From positions 1,951,501 through 2,015,500 of the forward strand of contig NC_013939.1 of the NCBI RefSeq assembly GCF_000010985.1: 64,000 bases of DNA, given 5' to 3'. A program made the translations under genes and the position numbers. The notes under the pieces are model-generated. The model had not been told where the DNA came from, did no database searches, and saw nothing but the letters and a program-made list of their open reading frames with translations. Positions 4,550-13,830 of the stretch are shown one piece after another. This DNA is from Deferribacter desulfuricans SSM1. Lineage in GTDB: Bacteria > Chrysiogenota > Deferribacteres > Deferribacterales > Deferribacteraceae. The stretch's first letter is position 1; the number at the start of each line of letters is the position of its first letter.

Positions 4550-5992
4550 TTATTTTTTCTTCAATCTCTTTCTGATTTTTTCAATAAACCCTGCTTCTGG
4601 ATAGGCATACAAAATACCATTATCCATTTTCTTAATACTTAGTTTAAGACCAATTTTAGGTTTTACATCACCTATATATCTTGCTAAGAATTTTTTCTGT
4701 TTTCTTTGCACCATTACTAAATTCAAAGGAGAGTTAACCCCTTCTGGAGTAATATAAAGCTCTGTAAAAGAATATATTTGTGGAATTTTGCTCATTTTCT
4801 CTTTTTTAGATTTTCTTTTATCATTAAAGTCATATCTCAAAGTTGACTTCACCTTACTACCTCTTCTTTTTAATATTATCACAAAATTATTTGTTGCTAA
4901 TCCTCCTATACTTTGAGTCAGAGCAACATCACATCTTTTAAGGGATATCTCATCGTTGTACTTCCCATTCATAATATTATAAACTTCTACCACCTGTGCT
5001 AAACCTGATGCTCCAACAGGATGACCTCTTGATTTTAGCCCACCTGAAATATTAACAGGCAATTTCCCATCATGATACCCAAGTCTTTCTTCATAAAACC
5101 TGATAATCTCCTTTTTATCCACCAACCCAGTATCAATTAGGCCAGTTACTTCAAAAGGGGTAAAGGCATCATGAATCTCAGCAAAATCTATATCCATAGG
5201 GCTCAATCCTGCCATTTTAAAAGCATTAAATGCAGCAGCTTTTGTAGACTCAAAAGATGTGATAATCTCTCTTTCACACAACGCTTGCCTATCTGTACCC
5301 TGACCAATTCCCGCAACAACAATATCACCTTTTTCAGAAGACAAATAAACTGCTGCAGCGCCATCACTGATTGGAGCACAGTCATAAAGCGAAAGTGGAC
5401 TAGATACTATTTTACTTTTAATATAGGTATCAAAATCAATTTCTTTTCTAAATTGGGCAAATTCGTTAAACTGACCATAATAGTGATTTTTTTCTGCTAC
5501 ATAAAAAAGAAGTTTTTTCAACACATCTTTTTTAATTTTATTCTCGTATGCGAATCTGTTTGTTACAAGCGCAGCCAGTGCCGGCATTGTTGCTCCAGTT
5601 TTTCTTTCTGCAGGGTGTATCACCTCTGCTAAAATTTTTGTTACTCTATTTGTCGGCATTTCTGTCATCTTTTCTGCAGCGATCACCAAAACATTTTTAT
5701 AGATTCCTGATTTTACTGCAGCATAAGCATAATACAACACTGCTGCACCAGTGCTTGAAGCTGTTTCTATTCTGACTGCAGGAATTTTATACAAGCCAAG
5801 TTTATCCAACACATAAGAAGCAATATTACCAACTCCTGTAAACTCTTCTGGATTCATTAACCCAATAAATACAGCATCCACATCACTTATATCAGTTTTC
5901 ATATTAAAAACTGCTTCTTGTATAAGATGAATTATATTAGACTTTCTTTTCCCAAATTTTGATAGTCCAGCCTTGTAGATAAAAACACCCAT
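4550..5992 (-). CDS. SCP2-type thiolase fused to a C-terminal OB-fold (DUF35-like) domain
   Basis: 480 residues from the chosen ATG, which follows GGGAG; an upstream ATG at 6079 would overlap the divergent gene and lacks support. Residues 1-380 are a thiolase of the SCP2/archaeal type, with conserved EIHDAF (His274) and SRGHPVGASG (His324). The acyl-accepting Cys of the usual C-A/S-S-G motif is Ser79 (ETASSTGAAV). Residues about 400-470 resemble the OB fold of DUF35 proteins, normally a separate partner subunit, without its Cys zinc ribbon. It may be a non-catalytic thiolase-like or acyl-CoA-binding protein, or use another chemistry. It stands alone, so no pathway is indicated. Confidence 0.75.
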   Translation of the reverse strand: MGVFIYKAGLSKFGKRKSNIIHLIQEAVFNMKTDISDVDAVFIGLMNPEEFTGVGNIASYVLDKLGLYKIPAVRIETASSTGAAVLYYAYAAVKSGIYKNVLVIAAEKMTEMPTNRVTKILAEVIHPAERKTGATMPALAALVTNRFAYENKIKKDVLKKLLFYVAEKNHYYGQFNEFAQFRKEIDFDTYIKSKIVSSPLSLYDCAPISDGAAAVYLSSEKGDIVVAGIGQGTDRQALCEREIITSFESTKAAAFNAFKMAGLSPMDIDFAEIHDAFTPFEVTGLIDTGLVDKKEIIRFYEERLGYHDGKLPVNISGGLKSRGHPVGASGLAQVVEVYNIMNGKYNDEISLKRCDVALTQSIGGLATNNFVIILKRRGSKVKSTLRYDFNDKRKSKKEKMSKIPQIYSFTELYITPEGVNSPLNLVMVQRKQKKFLARYIGDVKPKIGLKLSIKKMDNGILYAYPEAGFIEKIRKRLKKK

Positions 5993-6077: not shown

Positions 6078-6986
6078 ATGAGAGTAGCAGGTATAGATAT
6101 CGGAACAAATACTGTTAGATTGATAATAGCAGATGTAAAAAACGAAAAAATCGATAGAATTATCTTTCAAAATAGAAAAATAACAAGGCTTGGTGAAAAT
6201 TTTATAAACACAAAATACTTATCAAAAGAAGCTATCATAAGAACTGTCTTAGCATTACAGCAATTTAAAGAAATAATGGACACTTTTTTTGTAAATAAAT
6301 ATTATGCCGTTGCCACAAGTGCTGTTAGAGAAGCAGAAAATGGGGATGAGTTTTTATCTTTGTGTGAAGAAATAAATTTAAAAGTTGATGTTATTGATGG
6401 AGAAAAAGAAGCTAAATTGACCCTTTTAGGCGTAACATCTGGTTTATCCATCGATAGTGATAATTTTTTAATATTTGATATTGGTGGAGGCTCAACAGAA
6501 TTTATTTATAAAGATGGAGATAACTTAATTTTCAAAAGCGCTCCAATGGGTGTAGTAAAATTTGCAGATAAGTTTGATTTTAAATCAAAAGTAAGTGACA
6601 ATCTTTTAGAAAAAACTAAAGAAGAAATATTAACTTACTTGGATAGCTTAAATTTTATTAAGGAAGCTAAACAGTTGATTGCAACTGCGGGCACACCAAC
6701 AACTCTAGCAGCCATTCATCTAAAATTAGAAAATTATGACTATAAAAAAGTCCATGGCTTAACATTAGAAAAATCCAATATTGAAAATATCTTAAAGAAA
6801 TTATGCTCTATGGATGCAACTGAAAGAAAAAATATCCCAGGGCTCGAGCCTGGCAGAGAAGATCTTATCATTCCAGGAACTTTAATAATGCTTCAAATTA
6901 TGGATATTGCTAAAGCCGAAAAATTAACCGTCAGCGATTTTGGAGTTAGAGAAGGGGTAGCATTATATGCAGCCACACTTTATTAG
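6078..6986 (+). CDS. Ppx/GppA family phosphatase
   Basis: A 302-residue exopolyphosphatase or guanosine pentaphosphate phosphatase of the ASKHA fold. It shows the first phosphate loop DIGTNTVRLIIADV near the N-terminus, the second phosphate motif FDIGGGSTEF near residue 135, and IATAGTPTTLAAI. The length fits the short two-domain form without the C-terminal HD-like domain, so polyphosphate and (p)ppGpp substrates cannot be told apart. The ATG follows GAGG and lies 85 bases from the divergent thiolase start. It overlaps the DUF445 gene by 20 bases and is probably cotranscribed with it. Confidence 0.88.
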   Translation: MRVAGIDIGTNTVRLIIADVKNEKIDRIIFQNRKITRLGENFINTKYLSKEAIIRTVLALQQFKEIMDTFFVNKYYAVATSAVREAENGDEFLSLCEEINLKVDVIDGEKEAKLTLLGVTSGLSIDSDNFLIFDIGGGSTEFIYKDGDNLIFKSAPMGVVKFADKFDFKSKVSDNLLEKTKEEILTYLDSLNFIKEAKQLIATAGTPTTLAAIHLKLENYDYKKVHGLTLEKSNIENILKKLCSMDATERKNIPGLEPGREDLIIPGTLIMLQIMDIAKAEKLTVSDFGVREGVALYAATLY

Positions 6987-11459: not shown

Positions 11460-11867
11460 ATGTTAAAAAAGATTGACCATATTGGTATTGCTGTCAAAAA
11501 TATTGATGAAGCTTTATCTCTTTATAAAACTTTAGGTATAACACCTTATCATTTTGAAGAAGTGGAATCTCAAAAAGTTAAAACTGCATTTATAAAAGTT
11601 GGAGAATCAAATATTGAGTTATTAGAGCCCACTTCACCCGATAGCCCAATAGCAAAATTTATAGAAAAAAAAGGGGAAGGGATTCACCATATTGCTTATC
11701 TTGTGGATGATGTTAAATCTTGCTTAGAAAATCTTAAAGAAAAAGGGTTTAAACTAATAGATGAAGAGCCTAAAGCAGGAGCTCATGGAAAATTAATAGC
11801 CTTTGTTCATCCAAAAAGCACCAATGGCGTTTTAATGGAGCTCTGTGAACATGCAAAAAAGCATTGA
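11460..11867 (+). CDS. mce: Methylmalonyl-CoA epimerase
   Basis: A 135-residue vicinal-oxygen-chelate enzyme that interconverts (R)- and (S)-methylmalonyl-CoA in the propionyl-CoA/succinyl-CoA route. Two glyoxalase-type modules: [17 protein letters not shown] with a metal His, and [12 protein letters not shown] with a second His, then the metal Glu in [26 protein letters not shown] is the hallmark epimerase segment. No mutase or carboxylase gene is adjacent. The reading frame overlaps the carbonic anhydrase start by 17 bases, suggesting coupled translation. Confidence 0.93.
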
Positions 11868-12568: not shown

Positions 12569-13774
12569 TTATTCAGTTACTTCACATCTTCCACTATCAT
12601 AATTAACATGAGCATCTAAAAAGTATAATCTGTCCATCTCCTTGTAGTTGCAGTCTTCTTTGAGCCCAAAGTACATCTCCCCTGCTCTACCACCGCTTGC
12701 ACACATAAAAATTATATAACCATCTTTTGGAAGTTTATTAATAATGTAATCACACCCTTTTTTATACATGTCATCTACAGGAATATTGATAGCACCCTTT
12801 ACATGCCCTTCTTCAAACTCCTCAGGAGTTCTAACATCCACTATATGAATATTATCTGGTCTATCATCAATCAATGTTTTGAAAAATTCAATATCTACAG
12901 TCCCTTCATCTGGACCAGGTTTAATTGCAGAAACACTTTTTTTAGCTGCAGTTGTTTTCTTTGCTACAGCTTTACCAGGCTTTACTATTGGAAAACCTTT
13001 TGCTTTCCACTCTGGGACGCCACCAGCATAAACATAAACTTTTTTATATCCAAATTTTTCTTTTAATAATCTAGCCACATTATGAGATTTTATACAATGA
13101 TAGCCCGCACAAAAAACAACTATTGGCGCATTTTTATCTTCTGGCAACACATTTAAATAAGGATTTGGATCTCTCATAAACTTAGTATCAGGGATATTAA
13201 TTGCACCAGGAATAGTTCCTTTTTTCCACTTCAATGCTGGTCTTGCATCCACAAAAAGCACACCTTTATCAAGCAGCTTCTTAGCATACTTGTAGGTAAT
13301 TTCAGCGTAAGATTTCTTTGACCAATCCGGCATGCCTGCTAGATAAACTTTGATATTTGTGTACCCCTTATCTCTTAGATATTTAGCATCATGATAGCTT
13401 TTTACACATTTATATCCACCACAATAAGTAATTAATAATCTGTCTTTAGTAACTTTAAGTTGATCAAGCTGCCCAACATACTTATCAAACTTAGTGTCAG
13501 GGATACTGATAGCACCAGGGATATGGCCAGAATCATATTTTCTTTCTGGTCTTGCATCAATAAAAACCACTTTGTTAAATTTTCTCAAGCCATTTCCAAC
13601 CAATCCTTTAACATAGTTAAAATCAACAATTTCAAATCCAGCTTCTTTGACCATCTGCTCAACAGATTTTCTAGGCTTTTCAGCCTTAGGAGCCTGAACC
13701 TGTTTTGCACAACCTGAGAATAAAATGCCAATTACAAATAAAGCTAAGAGTACCTTAATTAGTTTTTTCTTCAT
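12569..13774 (-). CDS. Three-domain rhodanese lipoprotein
   Basis: 401 residues from an ATG that follows AGAGGAGGT at ideal spacing; an upstream in-frame ATG at 13819 lacks such a site and would lie over the promoter. A lipoprotein signal ends FSGC with Cys22, so the protein should be membrane-tethered outside the cytoplasm. Three rhodanese-like domains follow, each with an active-loop Cys: CGGYKC, CAGYHC and CASGGR. The first two share D-A-R-P-x-x-K-x-x-x-G-x-I-P-G-A and look like a duplication; the third is preceded by a lysine/alanine linker. It probably carries or transfers sulfane sulfur in the periplasm. It has its own consensus promoter and a terminator. Confidence 0.9.
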   Translation of the reverse strand: MKKKLIKVLLALFVIGILFSGCAKQVQAPKAEKPRKSVEQMVKEAGFEIVDFNYVKGLVGNGLRKFNKVVFIDARPERKYDSGHIPGAISIPDTKFDKYVGQLDQLKVTKDRLLITYCGGYKCVKSYHDAKYLRDKGYTNIKVYLAGMPDWSKKSYAEITYKYAKKLLDKGVLFVDARPALKWKKGTIPGAINIPDTKFMRDPNPYLNVLPEDKNAPIVVFCAGYHCIKSHNVARLLKEKFGYKKVYVYAGGVPEWKAKGFPIVKPGKAVAKKTTAAKKSVSAIKPGPDEGTVDIEFFKTLIDDRPDNIHIVDVRTPEEFEEGHVKGAINIPVDDMYKKGCDYIINKLPKDGYIIFMCASGGRAGEMYFGLKEDCNYKEMDRLYFLDAHVNYDSGRCEVTE

Positions 13775-13801
13775 AGCTACCTCCTCTAATAAACTTAATA
13801 A

Positions 13802-13830
13802 ATAATACCAAATGCTCAAAATGGTGTCAA
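13802..13830 (-). promoter_or_regulatory. Sigma-70 type promoter of the rhodanese lipoprotein gene
   Basis: A perfect -35 TTGACA (13825-13830), a 17-base spacer and TATTAT (13802-13807) on the minus strand, about 28 bases above the start codon. It is among the best promoter matches in the window and suggests strong expression. Confidence 0.8.

Follow-up and report, generated by a model that had tools for sequence, protein, structure and literature searches.

Can a protein of the thiolase fold still handle acyl-CoA with a serine where the catalytic cysteine should be? The question is raised by a gene in the window, the whole stretch of 64,000 nucleotides analyzed here, which belongs to a genome of 2.54 Mb in two contigs. 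The host, Deferribacter, is a heat-loving bacterium. The original prediction described the gene product as an SCP2-type thiolase joined to an OB fold, and offered three functions for it: an acyl-CoA sensor, a decarboxylase-like enzyme or an unusual serine-dependent thiolase.

Architecture of the Gene and Its Protein

The features of the locus are collected in Table 1. The open reading frame runs from an ATG at 5992 to a stop at 4550; a longer in-frame start is available at 6079, but the homologs favor 5992. In the window protein, Pfam matched both Thiolase_C_1 (PF22691, 3.5e-36) and Thiolase_N (PF00108, 5e-16). None of the NCBIfam models reaches its cut-off with this protein; the best ones are SCP2/archaeal-type thiolases, led by the PRK06064 subfamily model NF004720 (294.9 bits against a cut-off of 420), and the BbsB model NF053628 also stays below (111.7 bits against 750).

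Table 1. Features of the serine thiolase-fold gene, in window coordinates.
Feature	Position	Strand	Basis
Whole gene, 480 aa plus stop	4550..5992	-	ORF list; start backed by homologs
SCP2-type thiolase domain, residues 1-376	4865..5992	-	Pfam PF00108 and PF22691; AF2 model; Foldseek
Ser79 (TCA)-Ser80 (AGC), place of the catalytic Cys and its neighbor	5753..5758	-	alignment; in the model after strand 72-75, before helix 81-94
His274-Asp275 of the HDAF motif (canonical HDCF; Cys replaced by Ala276)	5168..5173	-	homolog alignment
His324 of the GHP motif	5021..5023	-	homolog alignment
Variable linker, residues 377-404, low model confidence	4781..4864	-	alignment and AF2
DUF35-type OB domain, residues about 405-465, five strands, no preceding zinc ribbon	4598..4780	-	AF2, Foldseek, alignment

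An AF2 model built from a 34-row alignment has a mean pLDDT of 92.2 and a pTM of 0.92, and consists of a thiolase domain and a five-stranded barrel, the latter with a pLDDT of about 93 and preceded by a linker whose pLDDT is 58-68. Its best PDB matches by Foldseek are 6esq, 7yvy and 4yzo, with a TM-score of 0.89 by target length for 6esq. The tail modelled alone has a pLDDT of 84, and its first eight PDB matches are BbsA (the top one), SSO2064 and Trf, all of them DUF35 proteins, with weak E-values of 2.7e-3 to 6.6e-2. A profile of the family's tails finds the DUF35 chain of 6esq as its best match among the PDB sequences (E 0.023), and the window protein's own tail gives no Pfam match to PF01796. 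The model, the Foldseek matches and the alignment with relatives, in which the tail or the separate protein does match PF01796, together bear out the proposal that thiolase and OB fold are one chain here.

The Active Site

The loss of the nucleophilic cysteine holds up as well. In the phmmer alignment to 6esq, query residue 20 pairs with chain residue 26 and the alignment is ungapped from there up to Ser79, so Ser79 (codon 5756-5758) stands opposite Cys85, the residue named as the active cysteine of the archaeal acetoacetyl-CoA thiolase (PMC6392133). His274-Asp275 and His324 are retained in the alignment to 6esq as well. In the AF2 model Ser79 is placed at the strand-to-helix elbow. Serine is found at this position in all 94 homolog ORFs, on which ground a sequencing error or a one-off mutation was rejected; its codon is always TCN. 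Ser80, Gly82, His274, Asp275, His324, Gly363 and Gly364 are equally invariant, and the two catalytic histidine motifs are thus retained as had been claimed. SCP2 thiolases have a second catalytic cysteine, an acid/base, in the HDCF motif. This one, overlooked in the original prediction, is also gone: the motif is HDAF in the window protein and HDAF or HDPF across the clade. With Ala276 at its place, the window protein has no catalytic cysteine left. Nor is there a substitute, since no cysteine is conserved clade-wide; Cys205 occurs in 50 of the 94 ORFs and is present in the Cys-type paralogs too.

These observations leave little room for an ordinary thiolase working through Ser79 or another cysteine, which we regard as very improbable. 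The overall fold and the CoA site look intact in the model, but the exchange of Cys88 for Ser in PhlC, a related enzyme, abolishes activity (PMC6392133), and other ORFs of the genome are of the classical thiolase-like type, one of them with CSSG. Taken strictly, as thiolysis or Claisen condensation, a serine-dependent thiolase is the least likely of the three functions first offered, and neither reaction is expected of the window protein.

A Clade with Serine and the History of Its Fusion

A single-sequence query of the GTDB genome contigs gave no match, while an alignment query gave 80 more loci. The resulting 94 ORFs cover about nine phyla by record labels, with three loci duplicating genomes already counted. 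Within the host's own phylum, several families, though not all, have one-chain homologs of 56-73% identity, and there is a second group of about 35% identity with a longer tail. The GTDB loci come from Desulfuromonadales/Geobacter, Binatota- and Myxococcota-labelled MAGs, Acidobacteriota, Elusimicrobiota, Fraserbacteria, Lindowbacteria and Entotheonella, and further ones lie in marine MAGs that we read, for want of a record label, as SAR324-like. One homolog (L012/L020; G023:C1, about 1958290) is interrupted by a frameshift around codon 62, either a sequencing error or recent decay.

Phylogeny of the homologs gives a single serine branch. In a 55-row tree with the trait columns 77, 79 and 80 removed, the Ser rows and PDB 4yzo fall on one side of a branch with support 98/86, the rooting not being fixed and 4yzo being a long branch; without 4yzo the support is 99/99, and an 81-row tree is concordant on this branch. 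The 4yzo protein, ST0096, has Ser at 79 but Gly at 80, which makes 79 the one of the two that is constant throughout. In the Cys-type paralogs residue 79 is Cys, Met136 and Phe280 of the clade are absent, and Gln333 is mostly absent.

The clade also retains the steps by which a two-subunit protein became a single chain. In a Lindowbacteria locus (L058), the gene after a Ser-thiolase of 377 aa encodes a distinct protein of 121 aa with a CxxC...CxxC pattern (PF01796, 5e-8; PF12172, 6e-5), and in three Elusimicrobia loci (L047, L048, L054) the thiolase gene precedes one for a free-standing OB-only protein (70-78 aa). The remaining members of this first group have the OB domain fused and the zinc ribbon absent; CxxC pairs are missing from the fused tails, and the ribbon is found only in the unfused Lindowbacteria partner. 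Full zinc-ribbon/OB partner, OB-only partner and one chain form an ordered series, marked by loss of the zinc ribbon and fusion of the OB subunit. Since the four unfused loci form a clade beside all the fused forms in the 81-row tree, the serine is earlier than the fusion on that tree. The host genome has no PF01796 protein, and hence no separate DUF35 partner elsewhere. In the Geobacter-type group (L013-L015, L059-L102) the tail is longer and includes a conserved basic segment, RRFYxKTxxG; hhalign gives a probability of 20% for the match of this tail to the OB tail.

It is possible, though on balance doubtful, that all of this represents one multi-phylum family of serine acyltransferases, with a single origin in the SCP2-thiolase branch before the split of ST0096 from the bacterial proteins, and with the DUF35 partner then absorbed as a zinc-free OB tail.

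Genomic Context

The window gene has hspR, dnaJ, hsp20 and a divergent exopolyphosphatase as neighbors, a context kept within the genus and not in other families. Elsewhere the neighbors, by sequence reading with some Pfam-checked, include fmt, endonuclease III, a sigma factor, GcvT and two-component genes, and no conserved acyl-CoA operon emerges across the loci examined. As described, the gene stands alone in most relatives, but in some a regulator of the FCD/GntR type adjoins it. In eight loci of a Binatota-like clade (L029, L035, L036, L039, L041-L043, L045), a gene of this FadR family overlaps or abuts the 3' end of the Ser-thiolase; in L033 the open frame continues from the thiolase into the regulator; and in L038 a family III CoA-transferase begins 4 bases after the thiolase. 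The statement that no CoA pathway genes lie nearby has to be corrected: a methylmalonyl-CoA epimerase (11460-11864, + strand, TIGR03081 over cut-off), the nearest CoA gene among those identified, is 5.5 kb off in a different transcription unit and is followed by a carbonic-anhydrase-like gene. No other PF22691 protein in the genome passes the cut-off.

Several further observations belong to these neighborhoods. In one Deferribacterota family the Ser-thiolase gene is directly adjoined by genes for a DUF1731 epimerase and for a membrane protein that has no Pfam match (L130:4501-6958), and the same pair is close to it in another family (near L131). As a linked partner, the epimerase beside the gene in L130 and L140 was rejected, since it is also found in genomes that lack the Ser-thiolase. 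A possible association of the Ser-thiolase with oligopeptide ABC transporters, in L130, L132 and Binatota, was noticed post hoc; L031 has an ABC ATPase of a different type close by. In the window, 12572-13819 (- strand) encodes a chain predicted to be lipoprotein-like, in which a rhodanese-type repeat occurs three times, its weak best match being a TsoB rhodanese/DsbD selenoprotein model, and the intergenic segment 4347-4377 downstream of the gene, TTGCGAGGAGCAAATGCGACGAAGCAATCTC, has the look of a dispersed repeat yet is single copy in the window.

What the Protein May Do

The reading we lean towards, tentatively and short of even confidence, is that the window protein is a functional member of this SCP2-thiolase-fold clade, with its serine nucleophile site, its OB tail and its missing zinc ribbon, and that it is an acyl-CoA-dependent enzyme using Ser79 as the acyl acceptor, in the way that DpsC uses its serine. 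DpsC is a thiolase-fold protein with a Ser118-His297-Asp302 triad that acylates itself and transfers acyl groups (PMC12664062). The fold, the replacement of the cysteine, its conservation, the single branch and the course of the fusion are established by the results above; acyl-CoA binding and acyl transfer are inferred. In the window protein, acyl-CoA would bind in the thiolase active site, shaped in cis by the OB domain; His324 and/or His274 would activate Ser79; and Ser79 would take the acyl group as an ester, to be passed on to some acceptor, as in an acyltransferase, or to water. We favor acyl transfer by serine because Ser79, His274, Asp275, His324 and Gly363-Gly364 are kept in 94 of 94 ORFs while the ordinary paralogs have Cys79. 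An active site that had merely drifted would not be expected to retain both histidines and the GHP and GG loops. The FCD/GntR genes at the 3' end and the CoA-transferase fit acyl-CoA chemistry in some lineages. What counts against it is the dead C88S variant of PhlC, which indicates that serine fails in a site adapted to cysteine, and also the lack of a conserved operon among the loci. PhlC moreover has a His347-Asp352 pair, whereas the window family has Ser329 or Thr and no Asp five residues past His324. Conservation by itself is not proof of covalent catalysis at Ser79.

A non-covalent enzyme is the next candidate, and a rather unlikely one. Acyl-CoA would be bound in the thiolase manner and the two histidines would do acid-base chemistry (retro-aldol cleavage, decarboxylation or condensation), leaving Ser79 only to hydrogen-bond or to complete the oxyanion hole. 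The active-site histidines are indeed invariant although both cysteines are gone, and the aldolases Ltp2 and Sal, which have DUF35 partners, use residues other than the thiolase cysteine pair, showing that a complex of thiolase fold and DUF35 can give up thiolase chemistry (PMC12329534). The catalytic Tyr of their YDHF/YDCY motifs is, however, absent here, as His274 occupies its position in HDAF/HDPF with 94/94 conservation, and an invariant Ser79, rather than Ala, Gly or Gln, better suits a reactive role. Less probable still is a sensor or scaffold that binds acyl-CoA and acts on a regulator or another enzyme with no catalysis of its own. The loss of both catalytic cysteines and the FadR-family gene at the 3' end in Binatota-type relatives speak for it, as does MsTLP1, a Cys-less thiolase-like protein with no known activity (PMC3406046); the regulator is missing from most lineages, the window included, and both histidines and the GHP and GG motifs are fully conserved across phyla. 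The weights we give to the four readings thus rest on the precedent of DpsC, the failure of PhlC C88S, and the departure of Ltp2 and Sal from thiolase chemistry through a Tyr that is absent here.

"Thiolase" or "lipid-transfer protein" is an easy annotation for such proteins and one that predicts the wrong chemistry. The signature TASSxGA, HD[AP]FxxF and RGHP could be used to re-annotate the clade.

Comparison with Known Systems

In the literature searched, which is less than the whole, we found no description of the Ser79 thiolase-OB clade. Fusions of thiolase and DUF35 were mentioned as early as 2010 (PMC2954200), and there are known thiolase-like proteins that lack the cysteine; the clade is therefore a variant and not a kind of its own. 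ST0096 of Sulfolobus tokodaii (4yzo), on the same branch, shares the Ser at the Cys position and the HD and GHP histidines; it differs in being archaeal, in having an HDMA motif and Gly at 80, and in a chain that stops after the thiolase domain. The archaeal acetoacetyl-CoA thiolase/DUF35/HMG-CoA synthase complex (6esq, 6et9) is the best structural match and likewise combines a thiolase with a DUF35-type OB fold, but has Cys85 and the HDCF cysteine, and its DUF35 is a separate subunit with a zinc ribbon. The benzoylsuccinyl-CoA thiolase BbsAB (7pxp) has the same two folds in common, as two subunits. The aldolases Ltp2-ChsH2(DUF35) and Sal-Shy(DUF35) (6ok1, 9myr) also pair thiolase fold and DUF35 and dispense with the thiolase cysteine pair, and they differ in the YDHF/YDCY motif, the separate chains and the retained zinc finger (PMC12329534). 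MsTLP1, the mycobacterial thiolase-like protein type 1, joins a Cys-less thiolase-like domain and a C-terminal beta-barrel in one chain; its barrel is six-stranded and of another kind, it has YSCF for HDAF, and its GHP is not conserved (PMC3406046), whereas the window protein keeps both HDAF and GHP.

The clade offers a stepwise series that leads from two subunits to one chain, and a natural experiment on how the thiolase fold behaves with Ser in place of Cys. DpsC-type priming enzymes share with it the thiolase fold and a serine at the nucleophile position, but they belong to the KAS III branch, carry a Ser-His-Asp triad and serve polyketide priming (PMC12664062). If acyl transfer through Ser79 is indeed what the window protein does, it would be a serine counterpart of the active site of thiolases in a setting other than polyketide priming.
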